A stretch of 64,000 nt of DNA. Origin: an uncultured Ruminococcus sp. Lineage in GTDB: Bacteria > Bacillota > Clostridia > Oscillospirales > Ruminococcaceae. The position numbers and the translations under genes were made by a program. The notes beneath the pieces were generated by a model that worked only from the letters and a program-made list of their open reading frames with translations, searched no databases and was not told the origin of the DNA. The stretch covers positions 43,861-107,860 of the forward strand of contig CADAES010000004.1 of NCBI GenBank assembly GCA_902786975.1, read 5' to 3'. This document shows positions 45,914-52,562 of this stretch, in pieces (the first letter of the stretch is position 1; each line of letters opens with the position of its first letter).

Positions 45914-48847
45914 TCAGCTGTTTATACGCTTGAACACTGCTTCCTTCTTCGAGTTTGTATCCTTTTCTATCTCCTCTGCGGTGACAAAGGACACGCTGTA
46001 TCTTCCGACTTCCTTTTCGATAGCCATTTGCTTGTCAAGCGGACAGTCGACTATCGAGAGCCTGAAATAGCCCTTTTTGAGCTCCTTGAGGTCGATGCCG
46101 TCAAAATAGGATACAGCTATGGTCATACCCTTTATATCCTTTACGCTGTCAAGCGACTTCAGGGGGTTATTGTAAAACAGGACGCTCTGGTACTTCTTGC
46201 CGCTTGCAAGCTCTATCTGTGAAATCTGGTTGTTGCTGAGGTCAAGCACATACATACTGTCCTTCATAGACGCTGTCATCTTTTTCAGCGGAGTCATATC
46301 GCTTATCTTGTTATGTGCAAAGCTTATGCAGCTGAGCGAGGTCATAGCACTTATCGGCTCCAGCGACTCTATCCCGTTATTGTCGCCCGAGATAGCTGTG
46401 AGCTTTGTGCAGTCCTTGACAGCATCGAGGCTCGTTATCTTGTTATTATTGAAGCTGAGGCATTTCAGCCCTGTGGCTTTGCTCAGCGCCGACAGGTCGG
46501 ATATCTGGTTGTCGTCGATAAACACGGCGTAGAGCGACTCGCTGCTCTTGCTGAGCAGGGAGATATCGCTTATCTTATTTGAGCTGATGTTGACATATTT
46601 GAGCACGGTGCAGTTCGTAAGCCCGCTGATATCGGGTATCTGGTTGTCGCTGCACTCGAATTTCTCGAGCCTTATCAGCTTTTGCGCTCCGCCGATGTCG
46701 GTGAGCTTGTTATGGTTGAGGTTGAGCTGTTTCAGGTCGCTGCAGTCTGCAAGCGAGTCTATCGAGGTTATCTCGTTGCTGCTGACATCGAGGCTTGAAA
46801 GCGTCTTGTTCCCCTGAAGCGCAGAGAGGTCTGTTATCTTATTTCCCGAAAGGCTGAGCGAGGTGATGTTTTTGTCCTTCAGTGCGGAGATATCCTTTAT
46901 CTTGTTGTTGTCCGCCTTGAACGTATAGAGCCTGTCGAGATTTGAAACGGGTGAAATGTCGCTGATATCGCAGTAGCTTGCCTCAAAGCTGCTCAGCTTC
47001 TTTCCTGCCTTGGAGATAAAGCTGATATCGCTGAGCTTCGGCACGCCCAGAAGCTCTATGCGGTAAAGCTCGGGAAGCTTGCTTATATCAAGCTCGTTCA
47101 CACACTCGTTGGAGAGGTCGCACTTTTGTATAACGATACTTGTAAGCGCCGACAGCTCCGAAAGGGACTTTATGCTGCCAAAGCCTGCACATTCCTCTAT
47201 CGAAAGATATTTGAGGCTGCTCTTCATTACAGAGAGCGAGTCGATAGTTTCCTGCGGTATCTGGCACTTGCTGAAATAAAGCGAGGTAACGCCCTTTCCG
47301 TTTGCCGCTTTGATATCATCGGGCGTAACGATCGTATTTGAAAAGCTTGCGTACTGTGATTTTTCGTCGATGTTCTTTCTTCCGCCGCTGGCGTCGGTCT
47401 GTATCATTCTGCTTCCGTCGGTGCCTGCGGTGACATATCCGACATTGGAAGCATCCACGCTGGAGCTGTCGCTGCTCTTTGCGCCCTTCACAGCAAGTAC
47501 AACGCACACAGCGACAGCTGCGATCACAAGGAGCACAAGGAACACGACAAGCACTTTTTTGCGTTTGCGCTGTTTGACCTTCTTAGCGACCCTGCGGTCT
47601 ATCTCGCTGCTCTCGGAGCTTGGGAACGGTGTATTCTGCGGCATCTGGGGCATTTGCTGCACCTGTGGCTGCGGTACGAACTGCGAAGCGTTCGGTACGT
47701 TCATCTGCGGCTGAGGATAAAACGGCTGCTGCGGCATCTGCGGCGCAGCGGGTGCTCTGAAAGCGCCGTTTTGCATCATAGCATTCGCCTGATCGGGTGA
47801 GATGCATCTGGTGCTGTCATCGTCCTGCGGTGCATGCGGGATCTGCACATCAGCCGGCTTTGAGCCGTCCATATACTCCACCTTGTCGGACAGCGATATA
47901 CTGCTCAGCTCGCCGACCAGCTCCTGAACGCTCTGATATCTGTTCTGCTGCAAAACGCTCAGACCCTTCATCAGAGCTGCTTCAAAGGAAGGTGTGACCT
48001 TGACGCCAAGCTCGGACGGCCTTTTCAGCTCGTCCTTGTGCAGCCTGTCGTTAGCTTCGTCGGGAGTGATGCCTGTTATACACTTATATATAGTTGCGCA
48101 CAGGGCGTAAACGTCTGTCCACGGTCCCTGCTCGCCCTTGCTGCGGTACTGCTCCTCGGGAGCATAGCCCGGCTTGAGCATCAGAGAAAGGCTCCTGTTG
48201 CCGTCTCCCGCAGAGTTTCTCGCCGCACCGAAATCTATGAGCTTAACGGTGTTTTTGAGTATCATAATATTGGACGGACTTATATCACGGTGGATAAGTC
48301 CCTGCTTATGCACCTTTTCGAGCGACAGCATAACGGGCATAAGAATAGTGAGCGTCTGCTCGGGTGTGAGCACGCCGTTTGTTTTTATGTAATCTCCGAG
48401 GCTTATGCCGTCGAGGTATTCCATTACTATATAGGCGGTGCTGTTTTCCTCAAAGAAGTCGATAACGTTGACGATGCCGAGCTCGCCTGTGAACTTTGCA
48501 AGAGTCCGTGCTTCGTTTAAGAACCTTTCCCTGCCCTTTCTGAAAGCGTCCTGCCCCTGCGGTTCGGAGGTCTGTGTAACGTTGGGAGAAACGCTGCTGT
48601 TCCTGTTTACGATACCGGACGGGAAGTATTCCTTCACAGCGACTGTCCTGTCGAGCTTGGTATCCTTTCCGATATAGGTTATGCCAAAACCGCCCTCGCC
48701 CTTGGCTATACCCACGATGTACCTGCCGCAAAGCACTGTGCCCGGAACGAGCATATGCGGCGGAACTGTTACTGCCGTGCTTTTCCCGCAATGCGGACAT
48801 TTTTCGCTTACCTGACCGATCTCATTCATGCAATAGCTGCATAACAC
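45914..48847 (-). CDS. Membrane Ser/Thr kinase with LRR ectodomain
   Basis: The 977-residue protein has an N-terminal zinc ribbon (CSYC at 3-6, CPHC at 17-20), a protein kinase domain (about 40-310: GEGGFG 50-55, VAVKEY with Lys72, HRDISPSN with Asp188, DFGAAR 205-210, PEEQY), and a Pro/Gln-rich linker. One membrane span (about 425-455) precedes about 16 SDS22-like LRRs to the end (units such as LSLSGNKITDLSALQGNK). The catalytic loop has Ser in place of Lys or Leu after HRDI. The start is GTG at 48847 with GGAGGGATGATCC inside the upstream stop. Confidence 0.94.
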   Translation of the reverse strand: MLCSYCMNEIGQVSEKCPHCGKSTAVTVPPHMLVPGTVLCGRYIVGIAKGEGGFGITYIGKDTKLDRTVAVKEYFPSGIVNRNSSVSPNVTQTSEPQGQDAFRKGRERFLNEARTLAKFTGELGIVNVIDFFEENSTAYIVMEYLDGISLGDYIKTNGVLTPEQTLTILMPVMLSLEKVHKQGLIHRDISPSNIMILKNTVKLIDFGAARNSAGDGNRSLSLMLKPGYAPEEQYRSKGEQGPWTDVYALCATIYKCITGITPDEANDRLHKDELKRPSELGVKVTPSFEAALMKGLSVLQQNRYQSVQELVGELSSISLSDKVEYMDGSKPADVQIPHAPQDDDSTRCISPDQANAMMQNGAFRAPAAPQMPQQPFYPQPQMNVPNASQFVPQPQVQQMPQMPQNTPFPSSESSEIDRRVAKKVKQRKRKKVLVVFLVLLVIAAVAVCVVLAVKGAKSSDSSSVDASNVGYVTAGTDGSRMIQTDASGGRKNIDEKSQYASFSNTIVTPDDIKAANGKGVTSLYFSKCQIPQETIDSLSVMKSSLKYLSIEECAGFGSIKSLSELSALTSIVIQKCDLSNECVNELDISKLPELYRIELLGVPKLSDISFISKAGKKLSSFEASYCDISDISPVSNLDRLYTFKADNNKIKDISALKDKNITSLSLSGNKITDLSALQGNKTLSSLDVSSNEITSIDSLADCSDLKQLNLNHNKLTDIGGAQKLIRLEKFECSDNQIPDISGLTNCTVLKYVNISSNKISDISLLSKSSESLYAVFIDDNQISDLSALSKATGLKCLSFNNNKITSLDAVKDCTKLTAISGDNNGIESLEPISAMTSLSCISFAHNKISDMTPLKKMTASMKDSMYVLDLSNNQISQIELASGKKYQSVLFYNNPLKSLDSVKDIKGMTIAVSYFDGIDLKELKKGYFRLSIVDCPLDKQMAIEKEVGRYSVSFVTAEEIEKDTNSKKEAVFKRINS

Positions 48848-48850
48848 GGA

Positions 48851-49564
48851 TCATCCCTCCTTGATATTTATCACGACAGCTGTGTTGTTGTCGTTGTCAC
48901 TGTTTATCTCTGCACCGCAGAGCTTTCTCATTGTCCCGAGCCACTCACCGGGCGTTTCGGACTGCTCCAGCGCACTGCACATCTGCTGTTCGACCACGCC
49001 GCCCCAGAAGCCGTCGGAGCATATCAGCAGGCTGTCGTATGACGAATTGTCCAGCACTGTGATATCTGCCCTTATATCCTGCTTGCTGCCCAGCGACCTT
49101 GTGAGGATACATCTGTCCTCGTGCGTGCGTATCCCTTCGGGGGTTATCTCCCCCAGATCGACACACATCTGCGCAACACTGTGGTCGGTACTCTGAAAGA
49201 CTATCCTGTCGTCCTTGAACGCATATATCCTGCTGTCGCCGATATTAGCTGCGACGGTATGCTCTGCGTTTATCAGCACGGCACAGATCGTAGTCTTCAT
49301 TTTCATTCCGAGCTCCCGCTGCTTTAGCAAAAGCCCGCTGTTTATCTCCTCCAGCGCTTTTCCGAGGTCGAGCGCAGCGTTCGCTTCAAAGCGCTGCTTC
49401 AGCTCGTCAACGGCAAATGCCGAGGCTACCTCTCCGCCGCGGCAGCCGCCCAGTCCGTCGGCAACGGCGGCGATAAGTGCGCCCTCCCGTTCACAGACAA
49501 GAAAGCTGTCCTCGTTTTTGTCACGCTTTCCGATATCGGAATATGAATCGTATAAAAATCTCAT
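48851..49564 (-). CDS. PP2C-type protein phosphatase
   Basis: A 237-residue protein with the PPM signature: SDIGKRDKNEDSFLV, IAAVADGLGGCRGGEVASAFAV (metal-binding Asp and Gly), CAVLINAEHTVAANIGDSRIYAF, ILTRSLGSKQDIRADI and LLICSDGFWGGV, ending NDNNTAVVI. It removes phosphate from Ser/Thr. Its stop overlaps the ribosome site of the kinase gene 3 bases later. The pair is a classic reversible signalling unit. Confidence 0.94.
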   Translation of the reverse strand: MRFLYDSYSDIGKRDKNEDSFLVCEREGALIAAVADGLGGCRGGEVASAFAVDELKQRFEANAALDLGKALEEINSGLLLKQRELGMKMKTTICAVLINAEHTVAANIGDSRIYAFKDDRIVFQSTDHSVAQMCVDLGEITPEGIRTHEDRCILTRSLGSKQDIRADITVLDNSSYDSLLICSDGFWGGVVEQQMCSALEQSETPGEWLGTMRKLCGAEINSDNDNNTAVVINIKEG

Positions 49565-49735: not shown

Positions 49736-50302
49736 TTACGAAAACAGCTTCTGGGTATTGCTGTCAAGCTCGGTCATCGTTTTGACGATAAAGTCCTCTG
49801 GTTCCTCAAAGCCGCCCTGCACCCATTTGGAGATCACCGAAAGGCAGCCCTGTGCACGGTAGCAGCTGAGATATTCAAGCCGTTTATCCTTTGTATCCGA
49901 GGTCTGCTTTTCTATCTCGACCTGTCTGAAAACACCCTCGATGATATTGCTCAGCTTGCTGCGCATCTCGCCCGTGGTCTTGGGACTGAATATCATTCTG
50001 AAAATGGTGCGGTTATCAGAGATATAGCTGATGATGTGCGCAAAGAAGTCACGCAGCGGAAGTTCCTCGAGCTGAAGCACCATAAGTCCCAGCTCAACGA
50101 GAGTGCTGTCCTCTATCTTCTCGTAAAGATCGTACACATCAAGATAATGCTTATAGAATGTTACCCTGTTCACATTTGCCTTGTCACTTATCTCCTGCAC
50201 GGTGACCTTATGCAGTTCCTTTTCCAACAGAAGCTCTGCGAGTGCGTCGCAAAGTGCCTTTCTGGTCTTTTGCGTGCGGCGGTCAACGGGTTTTTCGCTC
50301 AT
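49736..50302 (-). CDS. TetR/AcrR-family regulator (DhaS-like C-terminus)
   Basis: A 188-residue protein. Residues 8-62 hold the TetR helix-turn-helix (RTQKTRKALCDALAELLLEKELHKVTVQEISDKANVNRVTFYKHYLDVYDLYEKIE). The C-terminal domain (LRDFFAHIISYISDNRTIFRMIF...) fits the TetR_C_7/8-like group, whose member DhaS is an activator. It diverges from the repeat-protein gene and is the closest candidate to bind the palindromes at 50428-50473, though its own promoter (50346-50374) has none. The start follows AAAAGAGAGGTATGTAA. Confidence 0.88.
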   Translation of the reverse strand: MSEKPVDRRTQKTRKALCDALAELLLEKELHKVTVQEISDKANVNRVTFYKHYLDVYDLYEKIEDSTLVELGLMVLQLEELPLRDFFAHIISYISDNRTIFRMIFSPKTTGEMRSKLSNIIEGVFRQVEIEKQTSDTKDKRLEYLSCYRAQGCLSVISKWVQGGFEEPEDFIVKTMTELDSNTQKLFS

Positions 50303-50345: not shown

Positions 50346-50374
50346 ATTATAACACAGTTTCCCGAGGATTGCAA
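50346..50374 (-). promoter_or_regulatory. Promoter of the tetR-like gene
   Basis: TTGCAA, 17 bases, TATAAT on the minus strand, 54 bases from the nearest palindrome. Confidence 0.65.
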
Positions 50375-50427
50375 TATATTCAACGGCTATGTTTTCACAG
50401 TTTTTTTGATACAATTCAGGTTGACTG

Positions 50428-50473
50428 TGTAAATTAAGCAACACCGCGGCGCAAAAGTGTAGCTTAAGCTACA
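50428..50473 (+). promoter_or_regulatory. Operator pair upstream of the repeat-protein gene
   Basis: TGTAAATTAAGCAACA (50428-50443, 13 of 16 matches) and the perfect palindrome TGTAGCTTAAGCTACA (50458-50473) have starts 30 bp apart. The second ends 20 bp upstream of the -35 box. The same arrangement occurs at 52462-52507. The position upstream of -35 points to activation rather than repression. Confidence 0.75.
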
Positions 50474-50493
50474 GGCACCCGCATTATTGTCTA

Positions 50494-50522
50494 TTGAAAA
50501 CTGCGTAAATGCGTGATATTAT
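50494..50522 (+). promoter_or_regulatory. Promoter of the repeat-protein gene
   Basis: TTGAAA, 17 bases, TATTAT, then ATAG. Upstream ATTGTCTATTGAAA and downstream TATTATATAG match the promoter of the 31-residue peptide almost base for base. Confidence 0.8.
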
Positions 50523-50572
50523 ATAGTCACACCAAGAGAAACAGAGTTAAAAATGAAAAGGAGAAATCAAAA

Positions 50573-51406
50573 ATGACAAACACAAACAAGACAAGAAAGA
50601 CAAACAGAAAAGTATTTGCAGTGATCAGCTCGGCACTCGTTGCAGCAGCCATCGTAACAGGAACAGCAGTCGTTTCCGCATCTGCTTCACCTATCGAGAA
50701 CGCACCGCAGTCATTTGTCACCACACTTTCTGACAAGCAGTTGAAGGCAGCTGTAGAGAACGGTACAGAAAAGACAGAGGAAGTCAAGCAGAGCACAGAA
50801 GAAAAGAAAACAGAACAAGCACCCAAGACCAATGAGACAGGCAAGCACGAGGGCGAGTCGGGCTGCAACTATGTCGATGAGAACGGCAAGCACCCCGGCG
50901 AATCGGGCTTCGGATATATAGAGGATAACGGCTGGCGTCCGTGCTCAACAGGAGGATTCAACTTCGAGGCAGTAAAGAAGAACGCTGAGGCACAGGCAGA
51001 CGAAGAAAAGACCAACGAGTTAGGCAAGCACCCCGGCGAGTGCGGCTACAACTACGTGAACGAGAACGGCAAGCACCCCGGCGAGTGCGGCTACAACTAC
51101 GTGAACGAGAACGGCAAGCACCCCGGCGAGGCAGGCTTCGGCTACGTTGCACCGAAGGAAGATACTAAGGACACAGTTACAGTTGACGGCAAGCACGAGG
51201 GCGAGTCGGGCTGCAACTATGTAAACGAGAACGGCAAACACCCAGGCGAGGCCGGCTTCGGTTACGTTGCACCGAAGGAAGATACTAAGGACACAGTTAC
51301 AGTTGACGGCAAGCACCCCGGCGAGTGCGGCTGCAACTATGTAAACGAGAACGGCAAGCACCCCGGCGAGTGCGGCTACGGCTACGTTGCACCGACCGAA
51401 GGCTGA
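50573..51406 (+). CDS. Secreted Cys/His-rich 15-residue repeat protein
   Basis: I do not recognise the family. The 277-residue protein (ATG after AAGGAGAAATCAAAA) has a signal peptide (about 14-40, ending VSASAS) and a Glu/Lys/Thr-rich linker. It then has nine units of consensus GKHPGECGYNYVNEN, some with GEAGFGYV or GESGC variants. A longer unit ending APKEDTKDTVTVD occurs twice. His, Glu and Cys in each unit could bind metal or form disulphides, but no activity is known. Adjacent units are identical at DNA level. It has an activator-type promoter and a terminator. Confidence 0.85.
   Translation: MTNTNKTRKTNRKVFAVISSALVAAAIVTGTAVVSASASPIENAPQSFVTTLSDKQLKAAVENGTEKTEEVKQSTEEKKTEQAPKTNETGKHEGESGCNYVDENGKHPGESGFGYIEDNGWRPCSTGGFNFEAVKKNAEAQADEEKTNELGKHPGECGYNYVNENGKHPGECGYNYVNENGKHPGEAGFGYVAPKEDTKDTVTVDGKHEGESGCNYVNENGKHPGEAGFGYVAPKEDTKDTVTVDGKHPGECGCNYVNENGKHPGECGYGYVAPTEG
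50861..51398 (+). repeat. Tandem coding repeats in the secreted repeat protein
   Basis: Units of 45 bases beginning GGCAAGCACCCCGGCGAG are repeated; 51023-51067 and 51068-51112 are identical. A unit of about 120 bases carrying GAAGATACTAAGGACACAG also recurs, at about 51158 and 51278. High identity suggests recent expansion by slippage or unequal exchange. Confidence 0.85.
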
Positions 51407-51418
51407 TATAAAAACGAC

Positions 51419-51453
51419 AAAGCGTTAGTACAGACAGTACCGACGCTTTTTTG
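51419..51453 (+). terminator. Terminator of the repeat-protein gene
   Basis: AAGCGTTAGTAC and GTACCGACGCTT pair around AGACA, followed by TTTTTTG. Confidence 0.8.
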
Positions 51454-51493
51454 TGTCCGCACAAGGCCCGGAGCGCTGTCTACGGAGCGTGGA

Positions 51494-51522
51494 TTGACGG
51501 GAGGGGCAAAATCGGTTATGAT
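51494..51522 (+). promoter_or_regulatory. Promoter of the HTH-SOR-like gene
   Basis: TTGACG, 17 bases, TATGAT. No TGTAGC palindrome is present here. Confidence 0.6.
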
Positions 51523-51558
51523 AATCGTAACGACGGACGAAAAGAGGTGAGGATCAAA

Positions 51559-52203
51559 ATGGACCAGGTAAAAACAGGCGAGCTTATCCGTCGGCTCAGA
51601 ACTCAGATGGGGCTTACCCAGAAGCAGCTTGCCGAAAGGATAAACGTCAGCGACAAGGCTGTCTCAAAGTGGGAGTGCGGATGCGGCTGCCCCGACATTT
51701 CGCTTATAGCTGCGCTTGCTGATGTTTTCGGAACAGACGCAGGGGTGCTGCTCTCGGGCGAAGCTGAAAAGAACGAAAGTGAGAAAGGAAACATGAAGGC
51801 TCTTAAATTCTATGTATGCAAGGACTGCGGCAACATCATAACGTCAACGTCCGATGCAGCTGTCACCTGCTGCGGAAAAAAGCTTACTGCGCTGGAGGCG
51901 AAAAAAGCCGAGGCCGGCGAGATGCTGAACGTCAGCGATATCGGAGGTGAGCTGTATATCACGACAGACCACGAGATGACAAAGCAGCATTACATATCAT
52001 TCACAGCGCTGATAACCGACTGCAGCGTGATGCTGTTCAGGCATTATCCGCAGTGGGAGCTTCAGCTTAATATCCCGCTGTACCGCCGTGGAAGGCTTTT
52101 GTGGTACTGCACCCGACACGGGCTTATGTATCAGGAACTGTCATCGCAGCAGCATCTTCACAAAGCAAAAGCGCCCGCACTGCTGCACGGACGCTTTTAC
52201 TGA
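51559..52203 (+). CDS. XRE regulator fused to a superoxide-reductase-like (desulfoferrodoxin) domain
   Basis: The 214-residue protein starts at the ATG at 51559 after GAGGTGAGGATC. Residues 6-65 are an XRE helix-turn-helix (LIRRLRTQMGLTQKQLAERINVSDKAVSKWECG). Residues about 85-210 contain a desulfoferrodoxin-like Cys4 site (CKDCGN, then TCCGKK) and a neelaredoxin-like part: DHEMTKQHYISF and YCTRHGLMYQEL supply the His-His-His-Cys-type iron ligands of superoxide reductase. It could sense superoxide or iron. Its position between the two palindrome-bearing promoters makes it a second candidate regulator. Confidence 0.82.
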   Translation: MDQVKTGELIRRLRTQMGLTQKQLAERINVSDKAVSKWECGCGCPDISLIAALADVFGTDAGVLLSGEAEKNESEKGNMKALKFYVCKDCGNIITSTSDAAVTCCGKKLTALEAKKAEAGEMLNVSDIGGELYITTDHEMTKQHYISFTALITDCSVMLFRHYPQWELQLNIPLYRRGRLLWYCTRHGLMYQELSSQQHLHKAKAPALLHGRFY

Positions 52204-52251
52204 ATATTCTCTGTCATCTGATCTCTCCTTTTGTGTAATGTATTATCCGTT

Positions 52252-52347
52252 TCATCTTACGGTATTTGTGCAGATCTTATAGGTAACGTAAATTGCGATG
52301 CCGCAGAAGATGAAAGAAGCGCCGATACCGATGATCGTTGTAAGCAT
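52252..52347 (-). CDS. 31-residue membrane peptide
   Basis: The frame starts at ATG 52347, 6 bases after GGGAGGAAA, and ends TGA at 52252. The peptide is MLTTIIGIGASFIFCGIAI followed by YVTYKICTNTVR: one hydrophobic helix, two Cys and a basic tail. A strong promoter and operator pair lie directly upstream on the same strand. It could act as a membrane regulator, toxin-like peptide or signal precursor, but none of these is shown by the sequence. Confidence 0.75.
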   Translation of the reverse strand: MLTTIIGIGASFIFCGIAIYVTYKICTNTVR

Positions 52348-52412
52348 TTTGTTTTCCTCCCAGTTTTGTTTTGTTTTTGTTGTTTTGTGTCTTTTTCTCT
52401 TGCTGTGTCTAT

Positions 52413-52441
52413 ATAATAGCACGGTTTTACGGGAATTTCAA
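52413..52441 (-). promoter_or_regulatory. Promoter of the 31-residue peptide gene
   Basis: TTGAAA, 17 bases, TATTAT, then ATAG on the minus strand, preceded by ATTGTCTG. Boxes, spacer length and flanks match the repeat-protein promoter at 50494-50522. Confidence 0.8.
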
Positions 52442-52461
52442 CAGACAATTCTCCCGCCCTG

Positions 52462-52507
52462 TGTAGCTTATGCTACACCTTGCGGCTCATTTGTAGCTTA
52501 TGCTACA
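52462..52507 (-). promoter_or_regulatory. Operator pair upstream of the 31-residue peptide
   Basis: Two copies of TGTAGCATAAGCTACA (minus strand) at 52492-52507 and 52462-52477 start 30 bp apart, and the inner one ends 20 bp before the -35 box. A half site TGTAGC occurs at 52521. They match the pair at 50428-50473. Confidence 0.8.
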
Positions 52508-52562
52508 CGCAGGCTGAAACTGTAGCCCGAAAATGTCTCGGCGAAACGATACCTGCGGTTTA

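Follow-up and report, generated by a model that had tools for sequence, protein, structure and literature searches.

Two promoters in a 64,000-nucleotide stretch of DNA from an uncultured Ruminococcus sp. (GenBank assembly GCA_902786975.1, contig CADAES010000004.1, positions 43,861 to 107,860 of the forward strand; hereafter the window) carry the same array of operator half-sites, set in a 30-bp register and joined directly to the -35 box. Judging from the sequence comparisons below, both promoters are probably part of one regulon with the array as its control element. A TetR-family protein encoded beside the first promoter (49736-50302) is very likely to be the protein that binds the arrays.

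A preliminary description of this DNA had proposed that the two promoters share an operator layout. This was borne out: each promoter has a pair of 16-bp sites whose starts are 30 bp apart. The inner site ends 20 bp upstream of TTGAAA, which 17 bp separate from TATTAT, and ATTGTCT is present 5' of both -35 boxes (Table 1). All four 16-bp sites called palindromes there exist, although only one of the four is a perfect palindrome.

For the architecture, 98 sites with up to four mismatches were considered. The 84 sites with a recognisable outer operator were aligned, and 14 lacking an outer operator in register were set aside; several of these 14 resemble a true sub-type with a shifted outer site. 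At L070, L123, L141, L154, L157 and L162, the outer operator is displaced and an extra GCAAACGNTTGCG-type palindrome stands beside the inner operator. Numbered from the -35 box, whose first T is position 0, the 84 arrays conserve an outer half-site CTACAATTT at -85 to -77, operators of the form TGTAG-N6-CTACA at -66 to -51 and -36 to -21, and a last half-site AAATTGTCT at -10 to -2, followed by TTGAAA, TG-N-TATTAT and an A-rich leader. The array thus comprises six half-sites in a 30-bp register over about 84 bp, symmetric about one centre, with operator centres about three helical turns apart and the last half-site abutting the -35 box. Across 115 arrays, the mean self-complementarity about -43.5 was 0.50, compared to 0.21 to 0.28 at four neighbouring centres. 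Because the array blocks mirror about this centre, ATTGTCT is the last half-site; it and its upstream counterpart CTACAATTT bring two more half-sites to the one array, which the preliminary description had overlooked.

The window contained 8 operator matches where 0.75 were expected, a number not equalled in any of 100 shuffles. In the genome of origin (G000; 2,372,126 bases, 56 contigs, 90.35% complete), the single-site search with three mismatches was unspecific by itself, because it gave 20 matches per strand and the reversed control gave 39 and 36. All sites with 0 or 1 mismatch were members of 30-bp-spaced pairs. A search for two sites at a 30-bp spacing with at most 3 mismatches (the pair pattern) gave 6 pairs (C4:94288, C4:96322, C7:24726, C16:249, C43:5249 and C46:5810) and none in the reversed control. 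The promoter pattern searched alone recovered 5 of these 6 locations, again with an empty control. Arrays were called at a matrix score of at least 45, and these scores lean towards the search pattern because the matrix was trained on sites found with that pattern. A seventh array of this genome, a variant at C33, scored 65.1.

Among 61 genomes, the pair pattern matched in 11, all of them within the 29 genomes of the genus and none among the 32 outside it. The combined operator and promoter pattern matched in 16 of the 29; its matches in G018, G019, G022 and G016 were single sites without an outer operator, and G016 gave one genuine-looking pair in the pair search. When pairs were collected blind to the promoter, 26 of 27 distinct pairs had, on one of their two sides, a TTG at a downstream distance of exactly 20 bp and a TAnnnT at exactly 43 bp. 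The search of the genome and its relatives that the preliminary description had suggested therefore yielded six arrays and one variant in the genome of origin and more in relatives, which supports the shared architecture as the mark of a regulon.

The bare pair also occurred in 11 viral-contig stretches and 36 genome-contig stretches, 16 of them from Ruminococcus or 'uncultured Clostridia' and 20 from other taxa. By itself it is not specific, because the 20 other-taxa and 11 viral stretches, taken as control loci, held no array scoring at least 45 in 520,964 positions. Reversed-pattern controls were not wholly empty, with one match each in G042, G004 and G108 in separate searches. Before counting, single 3-mismatch matches in G022, G018, G019 and G016:C51 (L042, L050, L055 and L046) were set aside, and L102 and G371a, which are one array, were counted once. 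Removal of 4 near-copies above about 85% identity reduced the 119 arrays to 115 non-redundant ones.

The protein at 49736-50302 belongs to the TetR family by its Pfam matches (TetR_N 27.1, cut-off 24; TetR_C_8 51.7, cut-off 26.1). Its nearest named family is DhaS (TIGR02366), the TetR-family activator of dihydroxyacetone kinase genes, and its best solved-structure match by sequence is PDB 4mk6, a probable DhaK regulator (E 4.7e-11); 2iu5 is DhaS itself. The DhaS match of 58.6 bits is far under the equivalog cut-off of 129, so the protein is not assigned to DhaS, and the targets and the multi-site array differ as well.

Homologues of this protein with at least 55% identity were found in 12 of the 29 genus genomes (G000, G001, G002, G004, G006, G008, G009, G010, G012, G017, G020 and G024). 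Arrays scoring at least 45 were present in all 12 of them, compared to 1 of the 17 others (P = 2.5e-7). In the family, the protein (E up to 1e-40) occurred in 16 of 396 genomes from 8 genera, with a patchy distribution in which some members of a sampled genus had it and others did not. The array pattern with up to 2 mismatches matched in 11 of these 16 genomes and in 4 of the 380 others (P = 7e-15). Among the matches listed, the four without the TetR gene (G030, G157, G352 and G440) did not score as arrays, and one of the 11 TetR-bearing matches (G400) scored only 26. With a wider 3-mismatch search and the TetR loci included, an array scoring at least 45 was found in 15 of the 16 genomes, although the fair comparison remains 11 of 16 to 4 of 380 because the wider search covered TetR-bearing genomes only.

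Linkage was followed in 31 TetR genes with at least 51% identity (15 from the genus and 16 from the rest of the family), using flanks of up to 1.5 kb, some of which were cut by contig ends. An array scoring at least 45 lay in the flanks of 14 of the 31, upstream and divergent in 12. Distant TetR paralogues had arrays in the flanks of 0 of 7. In another family of the order, G667 carries a TetR protein of 50% identity with two flanking arrays of TGTAAG half-sites (scores 21 and 35), and in G757 an array with score 37 lies directly behind the TetR gene; all three scores are below the cut-off of 45.

The recognition helix changed together with the half-site. It reads NRVTFY[KN] in clade A and NRGTLYR in clade B, which consists of G008b, G010b, G020b, G330 and G371b as a single clade with a support of 100/100. 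The four arrays adjacent to clade-B genes have half-sites TGTTG, TGTCG, TGTTC or TGTCC with their mirror forms, and TGCTCA or TGCTTA at the -35 box. Half-sites of the TGTA type made up 30 of 40 in ten clade-A arrays and 0 of 16 in four clade-B arrays (Fisher P = 1.3e-7); these counts were made by eye with one of the two G295 copies, and they are not independent, since close relatives contributed three of the four clade-B arrays. G008, G010, G020 and G371 each carry the two TetR types along with the two array types. Class-B arrays (up to 2 mismatches) were found in 4 of 5 clade-B genomes compared to 1 of 38 others. By co-occurrence, linkage and covariation, the TetR-like neighbour, one of two candidate binders named in the preliminary description, is the best candidate.

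The composition of the promoters bears on the sign of regulation. At the 119 arrays, the -10 box was TATTAT in 61, TATCAT in 19, TAATAT in 12, TATGAT in 10, other sequences in 17 and TATAAT in none, and the -35 box was TTGACA in one. Other promoters of the same loci with the layout TTGNNN-N14-TG-N-TANNNT had TATAAT in 57 of 113, TTGACA in 29 and TTGAAA in 24. The genus and family search patterns (TATWAT) admitted TATAAT, and its absence at the arrays compared to its frequency elsewhere therefore favours activation over repression. The same direction is indicated by the weakness of these promoters, by the placing of the full operators 5' of the -35 box, and by the rigid register, which 26 of 27 pairs keep. 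DhaS, the named family nearest to the TetR protein, is also an activator, although the match lies below its cut-off. From promoter sequence, activation is thus the likelier mode. The regulon had been called activator-type because its sites lie upstream of a non-consensus -35 box; that argument is weak alone, since TTGAAA also occurs at 24 of the 113 comparison promoters, and the absent TATAAT and fixed spacing argue better for activation, which is favoured and not more than that.

We propose, as the likely reading, that this TetR-family protein occupies the operators as cooperating dimers, all on the same side of the helix. The outermost dimers would use an extended half-site, and the dimer at the promoter edge would contact RNA polymerase. 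The promoter, with TTGAAA, extended TG and TATTAT, would be held weak until activated by the edge dimer, and the C-terminal domain may act as a signal sensor. The genes switched would form an exported-peptide programme of secreted repeat proteins, lipoproteins, hydrophobic peptides of 25-35 aa, short amphipathic peptides and double-glycine-leader peptides. In a bolder and less probable version, the protein would be a master activator in rumen Ruminococcus and related genera. It would assemble a scaffold of several dimers on the array, whose 30-bp phasing runs up to the -35 box, and would turn on a shared arsenal made up of secreted proteins and of peptides that are leaderless, hydrophobic or of the double-glycine kind. 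The system would have been duplicated into separate TetR-operator pairs within and between genomes (TGTAG-type, TGTYG-type and, in another family, TGTAAG-type).

Several observations weigh against the likely reading. G016 bears an array without a close TetR homologue (at least 55% identity), and G330 has a clade-B TetR with no array found in the 3-mismatch and class-B searches. No array was present in the fetched flanks of 17 of the 31 TetR genes, some of these flanks being cut by contig ends. A clade-A helix stands beside arrays of mostly non-TGTA half-sites in G295 and G227, and the relatedness of three clade-B arrays counts here as well. The C33 variant of G000 (L197, G000:C33:21087) is a class-B-like array in a genome, about 90% complete as assembled, where no clade-B TetR was found. 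The candidate regulators profiled across genomes were the TetR protein and an XRE/desulfoferrodoxin-like protein. A repressor, too, could use the last half-site next to the -35 box, and repressors are the majority of TetR proteins.

Repression by the same TetR protein is the alternative that survives best, and we regard it as somewhat unlikely. Cooperative binding would end with a dimer on the last half-site, which directly abuts the -35 box, and a ligand would release this dimer. The TetR-array layout is divergent at 12 loci, an arrangement usual for TetR repressors and their operators, and the extended TG, found in 112 of 119 arrays, could make the promoter active alone. Against this reading, TATAAT, common at other promoters, is absent at arrays, full operators lie upstream of the -35 box, and in some arrays only the TTG of the -35 box is left.

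Binding by a regulator of a different kind, such as a NarL/ComA-like, CRP-like or RRNPP-type one, with the TetR gene as a mere frequent neighbour or member, is improbable. Paired inverted repeats with a site beside the -35 box do resemble ComA promoters as described in PMC4797271, and the profiling of regulators covered the TetR and XRE/desulfoferrodoxin-like genes. However, the TetR gene tracks the arrays across patchy genera, is linked to them, and changes its recognition helix with the half-site. Site geometry was also compared with that of LytTR/AgrA direct repeats, CRP/FNR, NarL/ComA, Lrp, RRNPP and NrdR; with no search for their genes, these carry low weight as rivals.

Mere inheritance of a copied promoter cassette that has no regulator of its own would account for the A-rich, partly conserved leaders and for the many different targets starting with M-[KT]-N-T; it is very improbable, as 115 of the 119 arrays remain after removal of those above about 85% identity, and the spacers vary while half-sites and register are kept.

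The second binder named in the preliminary description, the XRE/desulfoferrodoxin-like (HTH/superoxide-reductase-like) protein, lies between both window arrays and close to an array in G020, but its candidacy is hardly credible and was rejected, because its distribution does not track the arrays: it occurs in 20 of the 29 genus genomes, in 9 of the 12 TetR- and array-bearing ones and 11 of the 17 others (Fisher P = 0.69), and was not found in the array-rich G008. Several of its homologues, in G006, G014, G004, G025, G027 and others, are reported with in-frame stops inside the match, perhaps from decay or a shorter end.

Target genes were assigned with a rough classifier to the first gene behind each of the 115 non-redundant arrays and behind 125 other promoters of the same loci as control. 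The array targets included 43 N-terminally hydrophobic proteins, 22 short hydrophobic peptides (up to 45 aa), 14 short others, 6 lipoprotein-like, 4 double-glycine-leader-like and 14 others, with none found in 11 and a locus end in 1. The control gave 21, 1, 11, 3, 2 and 83 in the same classes, with none found in 4. Short hydrophobic peptides were thus clearly enriched (22 of 115 compared to 1 of 125, P = 5e-7), and several of the 14 other array targets also look exported by eye. The expectation of small secreted or membrane genes behind such promoters was confirmed, in that exported proteins and hydrophobic peptides of 25-35 residues were enriched, with some short amphipathic or double-glycine-leader peptides.

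Among the matches listed, peptides similar to MLTTIIGIGASFIFCGIAIYVTYKICTNTVR, the second window target, stand behind arrays in G006, G009 and G020, three tandem MEWLGIFVNDLIAR peptides behind an array at G012:C37, and three tandem VSGG-leader peptides behind an array at G002:C28. A bacteriocin role is suggested by the double-glycine-type leaders alone; one target peptide matched the CTB bacteriocin model weakly (18.5 bits, cut-off 32).

KHPGE-repeat proteins (K-H-P-G-E-x-G-Y-type, about 20 residues per repeat) recur behind arrays, at 50573-51406 in the window and at L030, L036, L044, L139, L145 and L159, and could be either wall proteins or precursors that hold a peptide in several copies. 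Array targets of many kinds (L134, L127, L146, L021, L139 and others) start with M-[KT]-N-T behind leaders rich in A, which looks as though the promoter had moved as one cassette with the leader and the first codons. In G009, G010 and G020 (L032, L033 and L069), arrays are followed at a distance of about 0.5-0.8 kb by a gene for a PadR-family regulator.

In the literature searched, no description of the present array regulon was found. NrdR boxes also come in pairs, each box a palindrome of roughly 16 bp, with a spacing of some three turns; this layout resembles that of the arrays, but the half-site and targets differ. The Vibrio quorum-sensing regulators LuxR, HapR and LitR are TetR-family proteins like the candidate, with a different organism, sites and array, and no sign of quorum sensing was seen here. 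LuxR and HapR act as both repressors and activators, according to PMC4797271. The same paper describes ComA promoters of Bacillus subtilis with an upstream inverted repeat, a degenerate second site beside the -35 box and further upstream sites that raise output. The first two of these features are also seen in the arrays, which on paper would work most like ComA promoters as described there. ComA is a NarL/GerE-type response regulator, whereas the candidate here is of TetR type and the array has a fixed 30-bp period. Passages of PMC13289728 deal with lanthipeptide core peptides in R. flavefaciens, which are different from the present regulon.

If the proposal is true, rumen Ruminococcus would have a defined regulator of exported peptides, many of them too short for ordinary annotation, and the array could be used as a beacon for peptide genes, some perhaps antimicrobial or signalling. 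A TetR activator of such arrays would be unlike ordinary single-operator TetR repressors if the activator reading holds, with an unusual mode of phased multi-operator control fused to the -35 box. The diverged TetR-operator pairs would also be a natural set for studying the joint change of recognition helices and DNA sites.

Table 1. Array elements, promoters and genes at the two window promoters (positions in the window).
Feature	Position	Strand	Basis
Array 1, outer half-site ATACAATTC (consensus CTACAATTT)	50409..50417	+	sequence; position -85 to -77 conserved in 84 aligned arrays
Array 1, outer operator TGTAAATTAAGCAACA, degenerate (3 mismatches)	50428..50443	+	sequence, pattern search
Array 1, inner operator TGTAGCTTAAGCTACA, perfect palindrome	50458..50473	+	sequence, pattern search
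Array 1, last half-site TGTCTA, directly at -35 box	50488..50493	+	sequence, array alignment
Promoter 1: TTGAAA 50494-50499, TG 50514-50515, TATTAT 50517-50522	50494..50522	+	pattern search
Target 1: secreted-type protein, 277 aa, KHPGE repeats	50573..51406	+	ORF, sequence look; no Pfam family reaching cut-off
Array 2, outer half-site CTACAGTTT, 13 bp (not 14) from outer operator	52517..52525	-	sequence
Array 2, outer operator TGTAGCATAAGCTACA	52492..52507	-	sequence, pattern search
Array 2, inner operator TGTAGCATAAGCTACA	52462..52477	-	sequence, pattern search
Array 2, last half-site TGTCTG, directly at -35 box	52442..52447	-	sequence, array alignment
Promoter 2: TTGAAA 52441-52436, TATTAT 52418-52413	52413..52441	-	pattern search
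Target 2: 31-aa hydrophobic peptide MLTTIIGIGASFIFCGIAIYVTYKICTNTVR	52252..52347	-	ORF, sequence
TetR-family regulator, 188 aa, proposed array binder	49736..50302	-	Pfam TetR_N and TetR_C_8; co-occurrence, linkage
Likely own promoter of TetR gene, TTGCAA-17-TATAAT	50346..50374	-	read from sequence
XRE/desulfoferrodoxin-like protein, between both window arrays	51559-52203

At 45914-49564, the window also encodes a large repeat-containing protein that is kinase-like in part, adjoining a PP2C-like phosphatase gene and the TetR gene; these names come from a look at the sequence.

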